64,000 nucleotides of DNA from Rugalucina vietnamica. Lineage: Eukaryota; Mollusca; Bivalvia; Lucinida; Lucinidae. The translations under genes were made by a program, and so were the position numbers. Location of the stretch: assembly GCA_964017185.1 (NCBI GenBank), contig OZ024869.1, positions 56,756,761 to 56,820,760 on the forward strand, read 5' to 3'. Below are positions 3,205 to 64,000 of the stretch, in pieces (position 1 is the stretch's first letter; each line of letters begins with the position of its first letter). The notes beneath the pieces are model-generated. The model saw nothing but the letters and a program-made list of their open reading frames with translations. It did no database searches and had not been told where the DNA came from.

Positions 3205-5632
3205 TTCAAAGTATTGGTCCTTGTCCTATCGGTACATCCCTCATATCACAAGTACTGGTCCCTATTATACCGTTATCTCCCTTATACCCTTTTTCTACCA
3301 TTAACTCCCTATCCTATATTACAAGTACTGGTCCCTGTATCAAAAGCGCTTTGTCCCTGTACTACCGCTAGCTCCACTATATCACATGTACTGGCACCTG
3401 TTCTAGCGTTAACTTCCCTTACATCACAATCACTGGTCCCGTTTCTACCGGTGCATCCCCTATATCACCGCATATCTCCTAAATTAATACTACTGGTCCC
3501 TGTCATACCGGTACATCCCCTACGCCACAAGCACTGGTCCCTGTCATACCGGTACATCCCATATATTACAAGTACTGGTCCCTGTCCTACCATTACATCC
3601 CACACACACGGATATATTTCACAATTATAAGTCCCTGTACTACCGCTACAACACCTATATTGCAAGTACTGATCCATATCGAACCATTACCACCCCTATA
3701 TCACAAGTACTGGTCCCTGTCGTACGGTTACCTCCCCTATATCACAAGTACTGGTCCCTAAACTACCGTTATCTGCACTAATTCACAAGTACTGGCCCCT
3801 ATCATACCGGTACATCCCCTATATCACAAGTACTGGTCCTTGTCCTATCGGTACATCCCCTTTATCACAAGTACTGCTCCCTATCCTACCGGTACATTCC
3901 AGATATCACAAGTACTGGGACCTGCCATATCGGTACATCCCCTAAATCACAAGTACCGGACCCTGTCATACCTGTTCCTGGCCTATATTACAAGTACTGG
4001 TCCCTATCCTACAGTTAACACCCGTATATCACAAGTACTGGTCCCTATCCTACAGTTAACACCCGTATATCACAAGTACTTGACCATGCCGTACCAGTAT
4101 ATCCCGTATATCACAAATACAGGTCCGTGTTCTACTTGTACATCACCTAAATCAAATCTATTGGTCCCTGTTCTACCGTTTCATTCTCAATATCACAAGT
4201 ACTGGTCCCTATTCCACCGGCACATTCCCTAAATCAAATCTATTGGTCCCTGTCTTACCGGTACATCCCATATGTCACATGTACTGGTCCCTGTCCTACC
4301 GGTTCATCCCCTATATCACAAGTATTGGCCCCTTTCCTACCGTTACATTCCACTATATCACAAGTACTGGTCCATGCCCTACCGGTACATCCCCTTTATC
4401 ACAAGTACTGGTCTCTGTTCTAACGGCACATCCCCTTAATCCGACTACTGATCCCTGTCCTACCGATACACCCCCTATGTCACAAGTACTGGTCCCTATA
4501 CTACCGTTTTCTGCCCTATTTCACAAGTACTGGCTCCTATCATACCGGTACATCACCTATAACACAATACTGGCCCCTGTTCTAACTGCACATCCCCTAA
4601 ACACAAATCTACTGGCCCCTGTCCTACCGATACATTCTACATGTCACATGTACTTGCCTCTATCTTATCGTTACATCCCCTTAATCACAAGTATTGGTCA
4701 ATGTCCTACCAGTATATCCCCTAAACCAAAGAACTGGACACTGTCATGCCGGTACATCCCGTATATGTCAAGTACTGATCCCTGTCCAATCGTTACCTCC
4801 ACTATTTTACAAGTACTTGTCCCTGTCCTACCGGTATATCACCTATATCACAAATACTGGATCCTACCCTACCGGTATATCTCCTAAATCAACAGTACTG
4901 GTCCCCGCCTGCCGTTATATCCCCTATATCACAATTACTGACCCCTGTCCTGCCGTTCTATCTAAATTGAATGTACACTCTGTGCTACTGTTATATCCCC
5001 TATGTCACAAGTATCCTACCGGTACATCCTCTATATCACAGTTCTGGACACCGCCATATAGGTACAAACCCTATATTACAAACACTGGTCCCCGCCATAG
5101 CCGGGTACATCTCCTATATCACGAGCTGGTCCCTGTCCTATCGGTACTTCCTACTGGACCCAGCCCTCCAGATATATCCCCTATATCACACGTACTGGTC
5201 CCTGTCCTTCCGGTATATCCCCAATATAACAAGCACTGGACCCTGTTCTACCGGTACATCCCCAATACCACAGTACTGGACCCTGTCCTACAGGTACATC
5301 CCCTATATATCAAACACTGGTCTTTGTCCTACCAGTACATCCCGTTTATCACAGTAATTGCCATGTTCTACCCGTTCATCCCCTATATCACAGTACTTGC
5401 CCTGTTCTACTGGTACATCCCCTATATTACAGTACTTGCCCTGTTCTACCGGTGCATCACCGTTATATCAAGTACTTGCCCTGTCCTACCGGTACATCCC
5501 CTATATCAAAAGTACTGGACCTGCGCTACCGGCACACCCTCTATGTCACAAGTACTGGACCCTGCCATACCAGTACATCCCCTATATCACAAGTACTGGT
5601 CCCTGTCCTACTGGTATATCCCCTGCCCCTTG
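3205..5632 (+). repeat. 41-bp tandem satellite array
   Basis: About 60 head-to-tail units, core CTACCGGTACATCCCC then TATATCACAAGTACTGGTCC. The period is 41 bp, with unit divergence and occasional small indels. The consensus has no stop codon in any of the three plus-strand frames. As 41 is not a multiple of three, one frame reads the three phases in turn. This gives several long overlapping open frames, with a 41-residue protein period in the longest (4694-5746). The minus-strand unit contains TAG. I treat these frames as by-products, not genes. No promoter, splice site or conserved domain supports translation. Confidence 0.9.
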
Positions 5633-28599: not shown

Positions 28600-29553
28600 C
28601 TAATCTCCTTTGTTGATGCCGCTTGGATTCAGTGTGTTGAGACGGCGTATCCAGTAGCTCTCACGCTGTTTTCTGGTCTTGTCCGTCCAACCCGAATTGT
28701 GGTCCAAGCAACAAACAGAGGCATGACTCAAGAAGTCATGCCCTGGCAACCGGAAGTGCTCTGCAACTGGAGATCGTTCAAATCTCTTGTGTTTCCAGTC
28801 ATCTCTGTGACCATTCATCCTCACGCTGAGTAGGCCCTTGGTTTCCCCAACATACTGTTTTCCACACTCTCCACACGATATCAGGTAAACCACATTCATT
28901 GTTTTGCAGTCAGTACTCCCCTTCAGTCTTACTTTTGCCCCATTCGACGACTTGGCTATGTGGGACGGGGTTATCATGTCGCAGGTTCGACATCTTGGTC
29001 TGCCACAGGGCTTGCATTCGCCATGAGGCTCATCATCTATGGAATCTGGCTTCAGTCTCGCTCTCACAAGAAGGTCTCTGAGGCTTTTGGGCCTTCTGAA
29101 AGCCATAATTGGCTTTTGCGGAAAGACTGAGTTCAGATGGTCTAATGATTCGATGATGGGCCAATGCTTGTCAACGATATTCCTGACCTTAGGTAGGTCT
29201 GGGTGATAAGTTATGACGAATGGCAAGATGGCTTTGTCTTGGGTGGGTTTAGGCCTGTACGATAACAGACTTAGTCTGTCCATTTGCCTAACCCTTCCTA
29301 TGGCTTGGTCGATGCTCTGCATCTGATAACCTCGTTTACTGAGTTGATCAGAGAGTTCTTTCATTCGCAACTCAAAAGCCTCGTCGTCTGAGCAAATGCG
29401 TCTGATGCGTAGCGCAAGACTGTAAGGAATGTTCTGACTGCAATGGGGTGGATGGCAGCTTGATGGCAGGAGATACTGGTGTGAGTCTGTGGGCTTAGTG
29501 TAGAGGTCCACGACGACTCTGTCTCCTTCTAGGTGAGACGTGGTGTCTAGAAA
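28600..29553 (-). pseudogene. Penelope RT thumb plus GIY-YIG endonuclease (partial)
   Basis: Open for 318 codons. N-terminal part: LDTTSHLEGDRVVVDLYTKP then SCHPPHCSQNIPYSLALRIR, the end of RT and the thumb of Penelope-group proteins. The middle has a basic region with RVRQMDRLSLL. It is followed by CKPCGRPRCRTC, a CCCC/CCHH-type zinc motif, and then the GIY-YIG nuclease: VVYLISC (GIY part), KQYVGET (YIG part), RMNGHRDD (the Arg and His), SPVAEHF and RKQRESYWI (the catalytic Glu). It ends NPSGINKGD-stop. RT catalytic motifs A-C are missing because the element is truncated at the (TA)n tract. All endonuclease residues I can check are intact, so the copy is young, but without RT it cannot be autonomous. 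Confidence 0.88.
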
Positions 29554-31646: not shown

Positions 31647-33570
31647 AGCTCACCTGAGCCGAAGGCTCACAGGTGAGCTTATAGTATACCCATGCTCCGG
31701 CGTCCGTCCGTCGTCCGTCGTCGTCCGTCGTCGTCCGTCCGTCGTCCACAATTTCAAAGATCTTCTCCTCTGAAACTGCTTGGCCAATCAAAGCCAAACT
31801 TCATGTGGAGCATCCATAGGAAGGGGGAACGAAAGTTTATATAAATGGTCCAGGTCACATGACCAAGATGGCCGCCATGGCTATAAATAGCAAAAACCTT
31901 TAAAAATCTTCTTCTCCAGAACCAATGGGCCGATTTCCATGAAACTTGGTATGTAGCAACTGGGACTTAGGCCCATCATAGTTTATATAAATCATGACCC
32001 TAGGATGACCTTGACCTATTTACGGCAAGGTCAACTTAGGTCGCCAATGCATTTGAATGGGAAAAAATGTTAAAATGCTATTTAATGGGTAAAACTTACT
32101 GGGAATAGGCAAATGGACACAAGATTAATGTTTTTGGAAAATTTTAGCCCCTGGGGGGTTGTCTGCCCCTGCCCCGGGGCGATATACATGTATATTTCCA
32201 TAATAATGAAACATCTTCTCCCCTGAAACCGCATGGTCAATCAAAGCCAAACTTCATATGAAGCATCCTTGGTAAGTGGGAAAGAAAGTTTATATAAATG
32301 GTCAAGGTCACTTGACCAAGATGGCCGCCATGGCTATAAATAGAAAAAACCTTTAAAAATATTCTTCTCGAGAACTAGAAGACCAATGATTTTGAAATTT
32401 GGTGTGAAGCATCAGTGACTGGAGCTCTACAAAGTTTATATAAATCATGACCCTGCGATGACCTTGACCTATTTTACGGCAAGGTCAACTAAGGTCACCA
32501 ATGCATTTGAATGGGAAAAAATGGTAAAATGCTATTTAATGGGTAAAACTTACTGGGAATAGGCAAATGGACAGAAGATTAATGTTAATGGAAAATTTTA
32601 GCCCCTGGGGGGTTGTCTGCCCCTGCCCCGGGGCTATATACATGTATATTTCCATAATAATGAAACATCTTCTCCCCTGAAACCGCTTGGCCAATCAAAG
32701 CCAAACTTCATATGGAGCATCCTTGGGAAGGGGGAAAGGAAGTTTGTATAAATGGTCAAGGTCACATGACCAAGATGGCCACCATGGCTATAAATAGAAA
32801 AAACCTTTAAAAATCTTCTTCTCGAGAACCAGAAGGCCAATGATTTTGAAAATTGGTGTGAAGCATCAGTGGCTGGAGCTCTACAAAGTTTATATAAATA
32901 ATGACCCTGGGATGACCTTGACCTATTTTACGGCAAGGTCAACATAGGTCGCTCATGCATTTGAATGGGGAAAAGTGTTAAAATGTCATTTGTAGGGAAA
33001 AACTTGCAGGAAATGGGCAAATGGACTTAAGATTGATGATTCTGAAAACATTTGGACCCCAGGGGTCTGTCTGCCCCCACCCCGGGGCAATATACATGTA
33101 TATTACAGTGATATACAAAGATCTTCTTCTCTGAAACTGCTTGGCCAATCAAAGGAAGTGGGAATGAAAGTATATATAAATGGTCAAGGTCACATGACCA
33201 AGATGGCTGCCATGGCTATAAATAACAAAAACCTTTAAAAATCTTTTTCTTTAGAACCAGAAGGCCTATGATTTTGAAACTTGGCATGAAGCATCAGGCA
33301 ATGGAGCTCTACAAAGTTTATATAAATCGTGACCCTTGAATGACCTTGACCTATTTTATGGCAAGGTCAACTTAGGTGGCCCATGCATTTGAATGGGGAA
33401 AATTGATAAAATGTCATTTGAAGGGCAAAACTTGCAGTAAATTGGCAAATGGACTGAAGTTTTATGTTTTCAAAAAGAAATATTGACTCCAGGTTTATTC
33501 TAGTCAAACAAGTTTAATGGTATATATCTCAGGTTTCAGGTGAGCGTTTACAGGACCATTGGTCCTCTGG
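31647..33570 (+). mobile_element. Modular repeat copy A, Helentron/HINE-like
   Basis: The 5' end AGCTCACCTGAGCC makes a hairpin with GGCTCACAGGTGAGCT. A CGTCCGTCGTCCGTC tract follows, then four modules of about 453 bp starting near 31756, 32208, 32661 and 33117. The 3' end has CAGGTGAGCG, inverse to the 5' end. A terminal hairpin AGGACC-ATT-GGTCCT follows, then CTGG, and the element is flanked by T on both sides. Subterminal inverted repeats, a 3' terminal hairpin, a CTRR-like end and internal tandem modules together suggest a Helitron-derived non-autonomous element. No Rep/helicase is present. The class is inference; the repeat itself is plain. Confidence 0.8.
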
Positions 33571-40488: not shown

Positions 40489-42200
40489 AATATTAACTAG
40501 AGGACCAATGGTCCTGTAAACGCTCACCTTAGACCTGAGATATATACATGTACCAATAAACTTTTTAGATTAGAATGGCACAATGCATGTATATAACCCT
40601 AGGGCAGGGTCAGAATAACTCCTGGAGTCAATGTCTTTTTCAAATCATAAAAAAAATTAAGTCCATATGCCAAATAACTGCAAGTTTTGTCCTTCAAATG
40701 ACATTTTAACAATTTTCTCCATTCAAATGCATGGGCGATCTAAGTTGACATTGCCGTGAAATAGGTCAAGGTCATCCCGGTGTCATGATTTATACAAATT
40801 TTGTAGACCTCCGTTCCTTAATGCTTAATGTCAAGTATCAAACTCATAGGCCTTCTGGTTCTGAAGAAGAAGATTTTTAAAAAAAATTTGCTATTTATAG
40901 CCGTGGCGGCCATCTTGGTCATGTGACCTTGACCATTTATATAAACTTTCATTTCCTCTTTCTAAGGATGCTCCACACAAAGTTTGGCTTTGATTGGCTA
41001 TGCAGTTTCTGAGAAAAAGCTGTTTGAATATTATGGTCATCTACATGTATATAGCTCCGGGACAGGGGCAGACAACCCCTGGGCCTAAAATATTTTCATA
41101 AGCATAAATCTTCTCTCCATCTGCTCATTCCTAGCAAGTTTTCTGCCATTACATGACATTTTCCTATTTTTTTCCCATTTAAATGCATGGGAGACCTAAG
41201 TTGACCTTGCCGTAAAATAGGTCAAGGTCATCCCAGGGTCATGATTTATATAAAATTTGTAGAGCTCCATTCCCAGATGCTTCATACCAAGTTTCAAAAT
41301 CATAGGCCTTCTGGTTCTGAAGAAGAAGATTTTTAAACGTTTTTGCTACTTATAGCCATAGCGGCCATCTTGGTCATGTGACCTTGGCCATTTATACAAA
41401 CTTTCATTCCCTCTTCCTAAGGATGCTCCACAAAAAGTTTGGCTTTAATTAGCCTAGCGGTTTCAGAGAAGATGAAGTTTCAATATTATGGTCATATACA
41501 TCTTTATAGCCCCGGGGCAGGGGCAGACAGCCTCCTGGGCCCAAAATAGTTTCTTAAACATAAATCTTCTGTCCATTTGCTAATTTCTAGCTCATTTCCA
41601 CCATTTAATTACATTTTCCTATTTTTTCCCATTCCAATGCATGGGAGACCTAAGTCGACCTTGCCGTAAAATAGGTCAAGGTCATCCCAGGGTCATGATT
41701 TATATAAACTTTGAAGAGCTCCATTCCCAGATGCTTCATACCAAGTTTCAAAATCAAAGGCCTTCTGGTTCTGAAGAAGAAGATTTTTAAACGTTTTTGC
41801 TATTTATAGCCATGGCGGCCATCTTGGTTATGTGACCTTGACCAATTATACAAACTTTTATTCCCTCTTCCTAAGGATGCTCCAGGGGCAGTCAACCCCC
41901 TTGGCCCAAAATATTTTCTTAAACATAAATCCTCTGTCCATTTGCTCATTTCTAGCAAGTTTTCCGCCATTTGATTACATTTTCCTATTTTTTCCCATTC
42001 CAATGCATGGGAGACCTAAGTTGACCTTGCCGTAAAATAGGTCAAGGTCATCCCATGGTCATGATTTATACAAACTTTGTAGAGCTTCATTGCCTGAGAT
42101 GCTTCATGCCAAGATTCAAACCCATAGGCCTTCTGGTTCTGCAGAAGAAGATTTTTTAAAGTTTTTTGCTATTTATAGCCATGGCGGCCATCTTTTATTA

Positions 42201-43204: not shown

Positions 43205-43910
43205 TGGAAAAGGTCCCTCAGGACCTTTTCCACAGTGTTTTCTTTGAATATGAAGAAAAGTGTACCCATGGCCGACTGCTCTAAGCTAATTACGCGTTAT
43301 GTCAAACAAAGCGTTTGATAAAAACTAGTGAACCGGTCTATGCCGACTAGACAATTCACCGTAAGTAATTTAATTTATCCTTCGTTGACACTCTCCGTCA
43401 AAATGCGGTTTATGACTATTGACATGTAGCAGACTCGAGCGTGACGACTTCTTATCATACAGCTTATAAGCTTGGACGTGGGGTACGGGGACTATATGTA
43501 CTTTATAGGGCTGTTTTTTAGTTCATCACATCAAATCCTTGGGTCTGTGTCCGAGAGTTAGACTGCATGTTAAAATTCAGAACTCTGTTACAGATTCACC
43601 GTACTACAAATTATTATAGTTTTCTACAAATCGACAGATTGACTTAAATCTTGTTCCTTTTAGAATTGGCTTGGGTTCCTTACACCTGAAATCTTGACCA
43701 GTGCCTTTCGGGACACTAAGATTTCAAAGATAAACACACTGGCCTGTCTTTCATAAAATCAAACGAAATTCGCGTCAATGAAACGAAACTGAAACATACG
43801 AGAATCGAAACAAATGAATCCGCACTGAAAATCTAGAACAAACAAGCTTCACTGGTAGCTCTGGTTGCTGCTGACCTTTTCACTGGTTTCTTTTTAAAGA
43901 AGCCAACTTG
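43205..43910. mobile_element. Unclassified 706-bp insertion in copy B
   Basis: It splits the module sequence GACCATTTAT|ATAAACTTTC and duplicates TAT. The left edge holds a palindrome GGAAAAGGTCC-CTCA-GGACCTTTTCC (about 43206-43231). No TIR, coding frame or known family was recognised. Confidence 0.5.
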
Positions 43911-44516
43911 TATAAACTTTCATTCCCCCTTCCCAAGGGATGCTCCACATGAAGTTTGGCTTTGATTGGCCTAGCGGTTTCAGAGAAGAAGATGTGTGAA
44001 TATTATGGTCATATACATGTATATAGCCCCGGGGCAGGGGCAGACAACCCCCATGGGCTAAAATTTTCCATTAACATTAATCTTCTGTCCATTTGCCTAT
44101 TCCCAGTAAGTTTTACCCATTAAATAGCATTTTACCATTTTTTCCCATTCAAATGCAATGGCGACCTAAGTTGACCTTGTCGTAAAATAGGTCAAGGTCA
44201 TCCTAGGGTCATGATTTATATAAACTATGATGGGCTCACGTCCCTAATGCTACATATCAAGTTTCGTGGAAAGCGGCCCACTGGTTCTGGAGAAGAAGAT
44301 TTTTAAAGGTTTTTGCTATTTATAGCCATGGCGGCCATTTTGGCCATGTGACCTGGAGCATTTATATAAACTTTCGTTCCCCCTTCCTAAGGATGCTCCA
44401 CATGAAGTTTGGCTTTGATTGGCCAAGCGGTTTCAGAGGAGAAGATCTTTGAAATGGTGGACGACGGACGACGGACGGACGGACGACGGACGGACGCCGG
44501 AGCATGGGTATACTTT

Positions 44517-45800
44517 AAGCTGAATGTCAGACAACTCGGACCCAAGACGTTAAAATACGTTTTAATTCAATGGAACAATGAAGTTTTTCTTTCGCCTTTT
44601 TAATCTATATAGTAAGTCGCGTGGTATCGTACTTACTCTATGACGACCGATGCTTCTTATGATGAATTTTCCGTCGCTTTTACTTCTGTTTGTCGTACCT
44701 AGACCATGCCACACTTTTCAAGGATTCGCATGCAAGATGTTTTCTTTTAAATGTGCGTTGCTTCGTGGTCTTACATTAAAAAATTTTGACTAGCACACAT
44801 TTCGTTCATGTAAAACCGCGTTTTAGCGCCCGTAAAGTGCAAATGGGTTGGGGTATTACCAAAAGTTCGATTGATGTCGATAGCATTCACCGATTGCAAC
44901 AAAATTTCAGAATTTCGTTTAAAAATGGTTATTCTCATCATGCAGATAATTTGAAGGTTTTCTTAAATATTACTAGGTGCGTTGGAAATAAAGTGTCAGA
45001 CTTGATATGACAAAAGCATGCATGTCACATATAGACATGCGGTCTCAAATTGATATATTTCATATTTGACAATGAACAGCTTTATGTATATATTCCATTA
45101 ACTGATTAAAGCAACTTCATGGTATCTAAAACATAGAGCGGTGTGATATGACTTACATCGCTGACTCAAGGCTTTGGTGTCTGAAGCCAAAGATGAAACA
45201 AAAGATAAAACAGAAGAATAACGGTACAGCCTGTTACACGTATTGTTCTTGTACAATAACACAGCAAGGTAGTACACGTGCTTCGCTGTCTTTTCAAATT
45301 CTCAAAATTAATTACGAAACTATCGGAGAAAAACAACAATTTGTACAAAATAAAAAGTAGTATCTGATCAATCCTGCATATTAGTCTTCAATAATTTTAT
45401 CTTAATGATATTTTAAGGGCATACTCTGCCTATGCCAAAGAAATGGACCCCAATCCAACATGGATGACTGCTTGGAGACGAACGCTATTCCACGGAAGTC
45501 ATATATGATGTCACAAGATGGCACCAAGTCTGGAAAGAACCAGGGTGTGCAAATATAGGTTTTTAATGATTTCTTGTCGCACCTAGTATTTTGTTGTGTT
45601 TGCTGTCACAGTAGCTGTTGTATTGTTCTAGTTATAATGGGATCATCAGCTGTTGCAGCAACGTGTTACATAGCTCCAGTCACATCATCGATTAATGCTT
45701 CGCAAGTTGGACAGGTCGCGATAATAATGATCAGAGCTATACCGGCTTCTACGAAAATATTTCCGAACTCCGTGTAGGGTATAGTTTCAATATTGTTTTA
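44517..45800. other. No gene recognised
   Basis: Unique AT-rich DNA. Short open frames such as 45148-45360 and 45574-45777 lack domains. The DNA just left of 45800 is the pre-insertion target of the L1-like element. Confidence 0.5.
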
Positions 45801-59880: not shown

Positions 59881-60439
59881 TAGTATTCAAACTTGTGTTT
59901 TGTATATAGCTCCCATAGACTTACAATGGGAAAAACATAAACAAGAAAAGCTATAACATGTAGCCACATGTAATAATTGGGCGGTGTGATAAAAGTGGTA
60001 GAAATACTAAAAAGAAATATGGCTTGATTTGCTAAGGTTTTATTATGGAAAAGGCTCCGTGTTAAAATTCCTTCATTCACCGGACTGCTTTCCACTGATT
60101 CGGGCGTTTTGGTCAATTACCAAATATACAGACATTAATGATCCGGTTCCGACTATGACTACACACTCAGTTTAGGCAAATAAAATGTATAATCGGTATA
60201 CTAACTCGAGCGATGTAGTCACATAAAAAGAAATTTAAAAAATTCAAACGAGCAGTCATCCTTTAATTTAATAATTAATGCAGTATTTCTGAACAAGATC
60301 ATGATTGAAGAATAAGACTGAATGCAAAACTTAAGAATGGTTAAGAAATATGTGAGGGTCGGGTGATGAACCCCTCCCCTCTTGATTTCTTTTGGTGGTG
60401 AGCAAAAAAGAGTTAAGAACCTACGAAATGCCAATTCAA
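59881..60439. other. No gene recognised
   Basis: Unique DNA between two copies of the modular repeat. Confidence 0.5.
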
Positions 60440-60982
60440 TCCGGACATGATGTTTGAATATTATAGTCATATACATGTATATAGCCCCGGTGCAGGGGCA
60501 GATAACCCCCTGGGGCCAAAATGTTTTTGTAAACATAAATAGTCCATCCATTTGCCCATGTCCTGCAAGTTTTGCCCTTCAAATCACATTTTAACAATTT
60601 TCCCCATTCAAATGCATGAGCGACCTATGTTGACCTTGCAGTTAATTAGGTCAAGGTCATCAGAGGGCCATGGATTGATTTATACAAACTTTGTAGAGCT
60701 CCATTGCCTGATGCTTCATGCCAAGTTTCAAAATCATAGGCCTTATGGTTCTGGAAAAGAAGATTTTTAAAGGTTTTGCTACTTATAGCCATGGTGGAAA
60801 TAACTTTTGTTTCCCCTTCCTGAGGATGCTCCATATAAAGTTTGGCTTTGATTGGCCCAGTGGTTTTAGAGGAGATGTTTCACTGAACATTGTGGACAAC
60901 AATGACTACAACGACGACGGTCGATGGAGCATGGGTATACTATAAGCTCACCTTGTGAACATAACGGCTCAGGTGAGCTAAA
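60440..60982 (-). mobile_element. Modular repeat copy G with intact 5' end
   Basis: One module plus the 5' end, minus strand. It ends on the plus strand with GAGCATGGGTATACTATAAG, then CTCACCTTGTGAAC and GGCTCAGGTGAGCT, followed by AAAAA, as in copies A and E. This fixes the 5' terminus of the family. Confidence 0.8.
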
Positions 60983-61017
60983 AATGGGACCTGGCGCGTA
61001 TACTAGCATACAAATAT

Positions 61018-61235
61018 GCATTCAAAGGAGCATGTTGGCCTGGTGGTTAGTGCATCAGACTCTGGTTAGGGAGGTAGGGAGTGGATCCCCACTGGTGGCT
61101 GGCTTATATCACTGCACGATGAGCAAGGGACATTGACTCTGGAAAGTACTGGTTAATACACACAAAGGAGTGTCCCAAGCTGGGGACATGACAGAAATAT
61201 TGTTGACTGGGACGTCACATCCATACCTAAATCAA
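61018..61235 (+). mobile_element. tRNA-derived SINE, head type 2
   Basis: Head: TTGGCCTGGTGGTTAGTGCA (A-box region), then GTAGGGAGTGGATCCCCA (B-box region, GGATCCC variant). The tail has GGGGACATGAC, then TTGTTGACTGGGACGTCA and AAATCAAACCAAA. This is the same tail as in the 2527-2822 family, but with a different head. Confidence 0.72.
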
Positions 61236-61339
61236 ACCAAAAGGTTGCACAGCTCAAATGTGGGTTGTACATTTTGTAAAGTGTTGTTTCTTAGTCTTTA
61301 AAAATCTGACAGCTGCTGACTACGCCATTTTAGCTCTAA

Positions 61340-61622
61340 AAATTCTGGTGTTTGATTTAAGGTCTAACATTCCTTCTTGGTCATCAATTTTTCAGTTATG
61401 TCCGGATGGTGCGACGGTTTTCTGGGTATCAACCAGGGTGAAAATCATGAGAGCCATGGACTAATTTCCCTCCTGGCGCACTCCCGGTGAAGTATTGTCA
61501 ATTTGGCGTGTCACCAGTAAACCATTCAGATTCAGATGTGTCTTGCTCAAGGACGCAACCAAGTCCCAGTGGGGTTTGAACCCAGAACTTTGTGATTCAA
61601 CACTACGCCACTGCCCTCACTA
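61340..61622 (-). mobile_element. tRNA-derived SINE, head type 3
   Basis: On the minus strand the head reads GGGCAGTGGCGTAGTGTTGA, then GGGTTCAAACCCCACTGGGA, with a perfect GGTTCAAACC B box. Its tail on the plus strand is GTCTAACATTCC and TTTCAGTTATGTCCGGATGG, a diverged form of the shared tail. Confidence 0.72.
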
Positions 61623-62098
61623 AGTTAATGACTGTAATGTGCTAAACCTCGGCTGCAGCAATCATGCCTGTATAGCTCAATTTCAGGAACATACTCTGAA
61701 TCCCTGGCGACAGGTTTTCTTGCACCCCGACTCACCTACTGATCTCGAAGTCATAAATTTTAAAACCAGCAAAATTTATAAGTCATGAAATTTCATGTAT
61801 TTATTTCTGTTTATGCACACTATGAAAGAACATAAATGCACTATTTACATATATAATACATGTACATGTTTGTACAAAACACATGCAATGTGTTTTTTTG
61901 TTTTTTGTTTTTCGAATTTAAGCATGGAAACTCCATGTGACCTGCATTGTCATGTTTGTCCATTGATGGGTCATGAAAGAAAGTCAACCTTGATAAACAT
62001 ATCCATATTGCAAGTATTATAATCTATATCACACTGGTTTATATTCAGAGAGAATTGTGAATGAAAACAAACAATGTCGATGCCATGATAAATACCTG
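61623..62098. other. No gene recognised
   Basis: Unique AT-rich DNA up to the target site of the palindrome-array element. Confidence 0.5.
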
Positions 62099-62105
62099 TG
62101 TGGAG
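62099..62105. repeat. Target duplication, left
   Basis: TGTGGAG, repeated at 63401-63407. With one mismatch the duplication may be 8 bp. Confidence 0.75.
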
Positions 62106-62106
62106 T

Positions 62107-63400
62107 ATGGCAAGCCGTTTTACTATTTATTATGCTTATTAGATATCTTGAATAGTAAATAAGATATCTTAATTAGGATATAAGATATCTTATTTAGCAA
62201 TAAAGATATCTTTTTTTATCAAAAAAGATATCTTATATCCTAAATTAGATATCTTATATAGTAAAGAAGATACCTAATATGCTAAATAAGATATCTTATT
62301 TGATCCCACAATTAAGATATCCTATATAGCATATAAGATATCTTATTTGATAATTTAGATATCTAATATACTAAATATGATATCTACTATACCTAAAAAA
62401 GATATCTTCTTTACAAGATTAATTAAGATATCTACTTTCATAAATAAGATATATATCTTCATTGCTAAACTAGATATCTTATATAGCAAATAAGATATCT
62501 AAAGTGGTAAATAAGATATCTTATTTAGGTATAATAGATATCTTATTTAATATATATGATATCTTATTTAGTATATTAGATATCTAAATTATCAAATAAG
62601 ATATCTTGATTAAGGCTATAAATAAGATATCTGTATTGGTATAGTAGATATCTTATATAAGTATCAGAAACCAATTGTGATTGGGTAAAACAAATAAGAT
62701 ATCTTATGTACTAAATAAGATATCTGATTTGTTAAACCTAAATAAGATATCTAATATAGGATATAAGATATCTATTTTTGTGTATACATAAGATATCTTA
62801 TTTGTCAAATAAGATATCTACTTTAGCATAGTAGGTATCTTATTTGTGAATGCAATTAAGATATCTTATATGTTGAAGAAGATATCTTATTTGACAAATA
62901 AGATATCCTATATGATAAAATAGATATCTAATATACTTTTTAGATATCTTATATATTAATTAAGATATCTTATTTAGAAAAAAACATTATTGATATCTAA
63001 TTTATCATATTAGATATCTAATTTGTTAAACAAGATATCTTAATTAACAAATTAAATGCTATATCAGATATCTATATTAATTAAGATATCTTATATATTT
63101 TTACAAATAAGATATCTAATATATCAATCAAGATATCTTATTTGTTAATTTAGATATCTACATTAACAAATAAGATATCTTGTTTAGTTAAAAAGATATC
63201 TTATATACTATATAAGATATCTTAAATGACAATTTAGATATCTAATATAACAAAACAGATATCTTATTTGCTATATAAGATATCTTCTTTATAATAGATA
63301 TCTAATAAAATAAAGTAGATATCTTATTTATTAAAGAAGATATCTTATATACAATATAAGATATCTGTTTGTTTGAATAAATAGTAAAACGGCTTGCCAT
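62107..63400. mobile_element. TIR element composed of 21-bp-spaced palindromes
   Basis: TIR: ATGGCAAGCCGTTTTACTAT then TTATT at 62107-62131, matched by its inverse at 63376-63400. A 7-8-bp target duplication (TGTGGAG) flanks it, so this unit moved as a transposon; 8-bp duplications are typical of hAT elements. There is no transposase. Between the TIRs, apart from about ten bases on each side, the DNA consists of AAGATATCTT-type palindromes. I counted 55 sites (52 with exact GATATC). Of 54 intervals, 37 are exactly 21 bp and most others 20-28. The spacers differ in sequence but are AT-rich and often partly palindromic themselves. Confidence 0.9.
62142..63365. repeat. Array of 55 RGATATCY palindromes
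   Basis: Perfect or near-perfect inverted repeats of 8-10 bp. Degenerate members are GATACC near 62269, GATATATATC near 62448 and GGTATC near 62834. The largest gap is 51 bp (62647 to 62698), where one site appears lost. Eight consecutive intervals of exactly 21 bp run from 63111 to 63279. Confidence 0.95.
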
Positions 63401-63407
63401 TGTGGAG
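63401..63407. repeat. Target duplication, right
   Basis: TGTGGAG, the partner of 62099-62105. Confidence 0.75.
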
Positions 63408-64000
63408 ACAACTTTCCACAGATCACAATTTTTTTTTGTAAAGTTGTTCTAAGGCACGTAATTGCATACTACAGTCTTTGAGTCTTTTACCGATTTTATC
63501 CGCGTTGGCTGTTCTCAGTTCTGGATAATCGGTTTGGTATTCTTACTATATATCACTGAAACATGTTTCGTGCACATGCACATCTTTGTTAACAGCTTCT
63601 CACCATGGTCTTATGTCACAGACAGCAAGATCCTTCATGCAGAAAAAACATACATACACACGAGTATTTAACAACAATTGTCAGAGAATCAGACTAAATC
63701 CTCGCTTCAATAAAACGCCTATGGGAAAGAACACAGGTTGCTAAAAAATGATGCACAGTTCAAGCCCAAGAATAGATCTTGTCAATGGCACTGTCACACT
63801 GAATCCAGTATAGCCCAGCCTTTTTATAGCAGGGCTTTAAAACTAAACTTTAATGATTTTTGCTTTGTAATATCAACTATATCTTGATTTCTTCACAGTA
63901 TTACTATAACTCATGTCCACTTCAAAACACAGATTGTATTAAAGTCCATTATTTATCATTTAAGTTAGGGTGAACAGTTTATTGTACATGCAGTCATCCA
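63408..64000. other. No gene recognised
   Basis: Unique DNA to the end of the window; a 69-codon open frame (63462-63671) has no recognisable domain. Confidence 0.5.

Follow-up and report, generated by a model that had tools for sequence, protein, structure and literature searches.

A non-autonomous IS3EU-type transposon of the bivalve Rugalucina vietnamica built of palindromic sites whose cores are under selection

The DNA analysed here (the window) is a stretch of 64,000 bp from contig OZ024869.1 of the lucinid bivalve Rugalucina vietnamica. At 62106..63401 (no strand assigned) it carries a whole non-autonomous IS3EU-type element with the termini TATGGCAAGCCG..CGGCTTGCCAT. Terminal inverted repeats of 26 bp, delimited by comparison with each other and by matches to the ends elsewhere in the genome, were located at 62106..62131 (forward strand) and, with an altered terminal base, at 63376..63401 (reverse strand). 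The 25-bp repeats first described as near-perfect proved to be identical, and comparison with other insertions placed the true ends (T..A) one base outside them; in the window copy the final base has changed from A to T. The element is flanked by a 6-bp target-site duplication, GTGGAG, at 62100..62105 and 63402..63407 (both forward strand), which stems from an old insertion into the ancestor of a 9-kb repeat. The duplication had originally been read as TGTGGAG, of 7-8 bp, an error explained by the altered last base.

The interior of the element consists of 55 palindromic sites with the consensus YA-N4-AGATATCT-N4-TR, which extend from 62141 to 63366 (no strand assigned) and are mostly 21 bp apart from centre to centre. 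Alignment to a longer relative, L127, revealed a short leftover of 28 bp at 62661..62688 (forward strand), where a central region has been lost from between the left and right arms of longer relatives; L127 has 0.9 kb of unique DNA at this place. The counts given in the original prediction were all reproduced. Exact GATATC occurred 52 times within 62107-63400 and 10 times elsewhere in the window; the number expected over the length of the element was 0.30 from the dinucleotides of the window and 1.24 from the element's own. Allowing at most one mismatch to AGATATCT there were 55 sites after removal of one overlapping match, and 37 of the 54 spacings were exactly 21 bp (38 of 55 with the overlapping match retained). 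The remaining 17 spacings were of 26 bp, the second commonest length (n = 5), 25, 22 and 18 bp and others; where sites are 18 bp apart, the sequences show that one TA dinucleotide can serve both neighbours. Across the 55 sites the core positions were 95-100% identical and the base in the middle of the spacer was near random, which agrees with the earlier observation of conserved cores and variable spacers, unlike a simple satellite. The element is AT-rich (GC 0.195).

Several other features were noted in the window. At 3491-5624 a 41-bp repeat, for which units of 164 bp were also called, forms a long array that stays open over frames of 206-350 codons, for which no gene evidence was found. A 303-codon frame lies at 28600-29511 on the reverse strand, and its end resembles what we take to be the GIY-YIG part of Penelope-like retroelements. 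Tandem repeats of 454 bp are present at 31756-33469 and 40696-41884, the first of which has inverted relatives near 43908-44521.

A search of the genome (1.09 Gb in 47 contigs) with the 25-bp end repeat, allowing up to 3 mismatches, gave 1,617 matches, 814 forward and 803 reverse, and none with a reversed control; as the original prediction had expected, other copies have the same ends together with target-site duplications. Forty stretches were fetched from 100 listed end matches, every one of them exact and located between C1 and the beginning of C4, so that the sample is not random. Fifteen of them fall in the 9-kb repeat, and the other 25 comprised 14 two-ended copies and 11 with a single end within the stretch. 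The 14 two-ended copies and three further long copies make up 17 independent insertions, by which the ends of the element were placed, since all 17 have TATGG..CCATA termini. Perfect 6-bp duplications were present in 10 of the 17, four had one mismatch and three were worse (L117, L129 and L131). The left part of L129 (G000:C3:21682813-21684489) and a short flank are inverted copies of its right part, so that an inversion-type rearrangement makes its duplication unreadable as one. For the 14 two-ended copies the mean identity of the 6-bp duplications was 0.86, compared with 0.21-0.34 for other lengths at the same ends. A hAT- or P-like duplication of 7-8 bp was rejected, because the nested 8-bp model, one base further in, reached 0.71, and a 4-bp duplication with the ends one base out likewise fell short (0.80).

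IS3EU elements are marked by 6-bp duplications and by TA..TA or TAYGG..CCRTA termini, according to the passages cited (PMC10045372, PMC12730594). By internal deletion the element has become a non-autonomous member of a cut-and-paste DNA transposon family of IS3EU type. The family has the TA..TA termini (TAYGG..CCRTA) and the 6-bp duplication of IS3EU/GingerRoot elements, and the corresponding IS3/IS481-like DDE transposase was found in a relative; the window copy itself lacks it. Assignment to hAT, where duplications are of 8 bp or, in hAT6, of 6 bp, was rejected because the gene beside the arm encodes an integrase-core transposase. Terminal inverted repeats of 26 bp together with duplications of 6 bp led us to reject a Helentron or HINE with satellite-like repeats. 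In the sample, the most frequent two-ended copies were those of about 1.2-1.6 kb that lack the gene but keep full arrays.

Some loci departed from this pattern. In L144 and L158 (G000:C1:90953540-90962290) the end repeat is followed by a tandem repeat of about 326 bp instead of palindromes; they are possibly another derivative of the family. No second end was present within 8.75 kb in either L144 or L152, both of which have a single end, and no transposase match was obtained there. The extra 1.3 kb of L113 looks like an unrelated insertion, and L166, which weakly matches the centre of L127, was dismissed because neither an array nor element ends could be seen. Among viral contigs a 15-mer of the end had 77 matches, by our estimate about the chance number, the best with 21 of 25 bases alike, and a search for three AGATATCT in a row found six short arrays, none resembling the element.

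The window copy resides in a non-coding interspersed repeat of 9 kb which occupies 59940..64000 (forward strand) and extends beyond the window. Three copies of this repeat were compared; they share 98.8-99.1% identity over long aligned pieces and a common left boundary at position 59940. Copy A (G000:C5, about 69075969-69085030) measures about 9.06 kb and has no stop-free frame of more than 130 codons; copy B carries extra pieces, and the window copy parts from the others shortly after the window end, at what would be position 64333. With a query that included about 100 bp on each side of the element, 866 candidate places were found in the genome. The 40 of these that were scored, the window's included, match both flanks, 39 at 96-100% and one at 90%, and in all 29 other loci fetched the similarity continues for at least 250 bp beyond both ends of the element and mostly much further. 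The duplication flanks of the window element thus recur in other copies within the 9-kb repeat, which means that the duplication goes back to a single old insertion, into the ancestor of this repeat, and not to a local jump. A recent jump into the present spot was rejected on account of these common flanks; to judge from them, the window copy probably did not itself jump here but multiplied as a passenger. The original claim that the element moved as a unit holds for the transposon and its 17 independent insertions, but probably not for the arrival of this copy at its present place.

The copies of the 9-kb repeat have the common ends AACAAGAAAAGC..CCGCCCAGAAAA, with short inverted GGGCGG/CCGCCC near them, and no target duplication was seen at the left ends of three copies and the right ends of two. 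The repeat may be a rolling-circle type element. Within the 9-kb repeat at L115 (G000:C1:20736600-20740240), part of the palindrome element has been multiplied in tandem, with three left ends at intervals of 1,065 bp ahead of a single right end.

The middle of L127 is made up of 0.9 kb of ordinary sequence, and through this copy three further long ones were traced. One of these three contains the start of a reading frame, and this led to a second place, C11:43361901. There, at C11:43361050-43366380, an end repeat with two mismatches precedes an arm with 22 exact GATATC, and the arm lies directly upstream of the start of a transposase gene. The four exons of the gene are collinear with a 481-aa protein of Mytilus edulis, and the best protein matches are from bivalves (Mytilus, Mizuhopecten). 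The catalytic exon matched the Pfam family Integrase core (PF24764, E=7e-45). In an alignment of 30 transposase homologues D228 and E320 were present in all 30 and D285 in 29, with DD35E spacing. Exon 3 and exon 4 each contain one in-frame stop, so that the C11 copy is decayed; the autonomous relative that the original prediction had called for was found to this extent, as one end, an arm and a four-exon but decayed gene. For the readings of the two N-terminal exons no Pfam family exceeded the cut-off (HTH_7 fell below it with E=0.022), and a PDB sequence search with the transposase core gave no match at E<=1.

The left arms of the C11 copy and of L127 differ little (8/208 in cores, 9/393 in spacers). 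With the right arm of L127 as query the C11 place was not among the 40 of 832 candidates that were scored, and the right arm of the C11 copy may be truncated or too decayed. In all four long forms the arms flank the centre on both sides. From the one half preserved at C11 and from the deletion derivatives, it would appear that the transposase gene lay between two arms; in its right half the full-size form is a reconstruction. In the structure predicted for the Mytilus homologue (mean pLDDT 83, pTM 0.72) an N-terminal helical bundle and helical groups at 106-139 and 153-206 precede the strands of the catalytic core; the helical groups look as though they might bind DNA. The best fold matches to this model in the PDB, with E from 1.5e-5, were retroviral intasomes, IstA and TnsB; their coverage of the model is partial (TM by query length <=0.31). 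These proteins form multimers that pair DNA ends.

Two comparisons of cores with spacers gave different results. In 30 copies inside the 9-kb repeat 69 of 13,186 core cells and 92 of 24,069 spacer cells had changed, cores being slightly but not significantly higher (p=0.057). As the cores of passengers change as fast as the spacers, they are not mutational cold spots. Between the two mobile subfamilies that were compared the picture was entirely different. The consensus of the young subfamily differed from each of the four long copies in 1.6-2.0% of core but about 23% of spacer positions, and from the majority of the four in 5/451 core and 213/794 spacer positions (p=1e-39); the latter spacer figure (26.8%, against 23-24% pairwise) may be somewhat inflated by misaligned monomers. 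An ordinary satellite, in which all positions of the monomer diverge alike, is rejected by this comparison. Spacers at orthologous sites were nearer to each other than those at paralogous sites (for example 0.42 versus 0.75 at position 11), which indicates that the monomers largely correspond and have not been homogenised. The private changes of the four long copies, which affected 9/1,896 core and 25/3,321 spacer positions (p=0.28), likewise showed no deficit in cores. Within the young subfamily L131 had changed in 11/276 core (4.0%) and 9/538 spacer positions (1.7%), and L113 in 7/441 (1.6%) and 26/844 (3.1%), respectively. The one-ended copies L139 and L148, taken as older, differed by 9-11% in cores and 22-25% in spacers. 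Equal divergence of cores and spacers, which according to the original prediction would have spoken for a satellite, was thus found among young passenger copies and was clearly absent between subfamilies, and it is the second comparison that tests selection. Since the cores are nearly frozen between the two subfamilies and drift in passengers, they are under core-specific selection in the mobile lineage and are not protected as a cold spot.

The positions under constraint outline a footprint. In the 33 of 56 sites that aligned without gaps the divergence at distances 1-12 from the dyad was 0, 0, 0,.03,.35,.39,.14,.26,.06,.24,.42 and.33. At distance 9 a symmetric pair of A and T, which forms part of the site, is kept in 106/110 half-sites of the young form and in 101/118 of L127. 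Next to gaps of 26 bp the outer T is present in 10/10 cases in the young form and in 14/16 in L127; it stays with its own core and so belongs to the site, not to the phase. Judged by these alignments, the unit is a 20-bp palindrome, YA-N4-AGATATCT-N4-TR, and the spacing is secondary. It had been proposed that a 21-bp phase places every site on one face of the DNA. This was not borne out: 17 of the 54 spacings differ from 21 bp, and the phase coherence of the consensus array at 10.5 bp (0.18) was not above that of spacings in shuffled order (median 0.23).

Frozen bases in a symmetric site, with contacts both in the core and further out, are the trace to be expected of a dimeric DNA-binding protein. 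Taking the evidence as a whole, we consider it rather probable that the arms are rows of sites for cooperatively binding dimers, most likely of the element's own transposase, which is the best candidate in view of the position of its gene next to an arm and of the retention of both arms in gene-less copies. Binding by a dimer, as originally suggested, suits the symmetric outer bases; the binding itself, its cooperativity, the identity of the protein and the pairing of ends are inferences. The full-size form would have consisted of an end repeat, a left arm of about 26 palindromes, the transposase gene, a right arm of about 31 palindromes and an end repeat, and deletion of the gene would have joined both arms into the 1.3-kb form made up entirely of palindromes. 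In each 20-bp palindrome a dimeric protein would read the 8 bp of the core and make symmetric contacts roughly a helical turn away from the dyad, and the pitch of mostly 21 bp would let adjacent dimers touch. A coat of dimers along both arms might then recruit the transposase and pair the two ends. Loss of sites would lower movement, and in this way the mobile lineage would retain its cores and dead copies would drift.

A bolder version can be put forward only tentatively, and we would not give it even chances. Each end would be a 'landing strip' of 0.6-0.7 kb with 26-31 dimer sites at 21-bp pitch, an end architecture for which the papers searched give no description and on which the transposase forms a long cooperative filament that pairs the distant ends. 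The non-autonomous copies would have become almost nothing but landing strip and would outcompete the autonomous element for the protein.

A host protein could equally select palindromic sites. The palindromes might be bound by a transcription factor, an architectural or a silencing protein and serve expression in germ cells, the opening of chromatin or replication timing, the transposase needing nothing but the ends. Selection on a symmetric site leaves open which protein reads it, and the position of the C11 arm upstream of the gene start resembles that of a promoter-proximal enhancer. Use at a promoter alone would not, however, call for arms on both sides of the centre, as in the four long forms, and the gene-less forms of about 1.2-1.6 kb retain full arrays with nothing to express. 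We regard selection by a host protein as rather unlikely.

Alternatively the internal sites might titrate the transposase or a repressor and damp movement, the non-autonomous copies regulating the family. An extra subterminal site restricts piggyBat (PMC11707139, in the part cited), a precedent for such decoys which, by analogy, also counts against an array that serves the transposase, given that extra sites can inhibit. Selection for self-restraint would, however, have to act on single copies and outweigh their reduced spread, and the strict keeping of dozens of cores in a multiplying lineage would be explained more easily by a gain in movement. Damping seems quite improbable.

That cruciforms or hairpins stimulate transposition, replication slippage or small RNAs seems very improbable. 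In line with the earlier proposal of hairpin or cruciform nucleation, the cores are self-complementary and the element is AT-rich, but the flanks beyond the core pair no more than base preferences predict. At distances 5-10 no left-right pairing exceeded the base-preference expectation in the young and L127 arrays (12 tests; lowest single P 0.037, the other eleven >=0.127), and this absence of covariation leaves hairpins unsupported; the bases at distance 9, furthermore, are kept while those at 5, 6 and 8 vary. What remains of the original interpretation is a transposon with many copies, a relative with a transposase gene, protected cores and outer bases that suit a dimer; a local jump, the length of the duplication and the single face have been given up, and the hairpin is disfavoured. 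Hardly credible, finally, is an ordinary minisatellite caught by chance in a transposon and kept alike by homogenisation: it could appeal to the about equal rates within young copies, to the satellite-like arrays known inside bivalve transposons (PMC7492417, in the part cited) and to two oyster satellites of 690 and 129 bp annotated as IS3EU-related (PMC8268682, likewise), but homogenisation acts on whole monomers, yet here the cores alone are frozen and orthologous spacers are closer, and the passengers exclude a mutational cold spot.

What is new is the design of the arms, together with the evidence that the array is selected in the mobile lineage while passengers drift. For repeats inside transposons selection is usually hard to separate from homogenisation or mutation bias. 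Here the passengers provide the neutral rate and the mobile subfamilies the selected rate, so that the two can be told apart. The passages cited on IS3EU elements contained no description of DNA recognition by their transposases. For the cooperative dimer sites favoured here, sequence alone yields a probable 20-bp recognition site at base-level resolution, dozens of natural variants of it and a transposase gene.

Among known systems IS3EU/GingerRoot elements, as described in the cited parts of PMC10045372 and PMC12730594, are alike in their TAYGG..CCRTA-type ends, 6-bp duplications, IS3/IS481-like DDE transposase and non-autonomous derivatives. The end repeat is 26 bp here, whereas rust-fungus IS3EU families are described there as having more than 30 bp. 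In the open-access literature, to which this comparison was confined (that is, without Repbase), the passages retrieved mentioned no IS3EU element with arms of tandem palindromes. The original statement that no described family has this design accordingly fails for the superfamily, which is IS3EU, and stands for the arms. The oyster IS3EU-related satellites differ in their long monomers (690 and 129 bp), and no palindrome array is described for them in the cited part of PMC8268682. The bivalve Helentrons (Cg_HINE, pearl/DTC84; PMC7492417, PMC5139131) are, like the present family, mollusc transposons with internal tandem repeats, but they lack a target duplication and have subterminal instead of terminal inverted repeats and a 3' palindrome, and the cited passages report no selection confined to cores. 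Closer in design are the STRs of the hAT element Hermes (PMC10368747) and the 19-bp palindromes of piggyBac (PMC11707139), which are repeated, partly palindromic sites inside the ends, as are the present arms. According to the passages cited they are bound by transposase domains and are thought to aid end pairing by avidity. They belong to other superfamilies, with one or a few to about fifteen short sites per end as against some 55 full 20-bp palindromes, a number that far exceeds the transposase arrays described in these sources and counts against reading ours as one. The layout itself has a parallel in the EBNA1 sites of EBV oriP, whose DS element consists, in the part of PMC3798644 cited, of tandem dimer sites 21 bp apart from centre to centre, as here; oriP serves replication and tethering of an episome with unrelated proteins, and the likeness is one of layout only.
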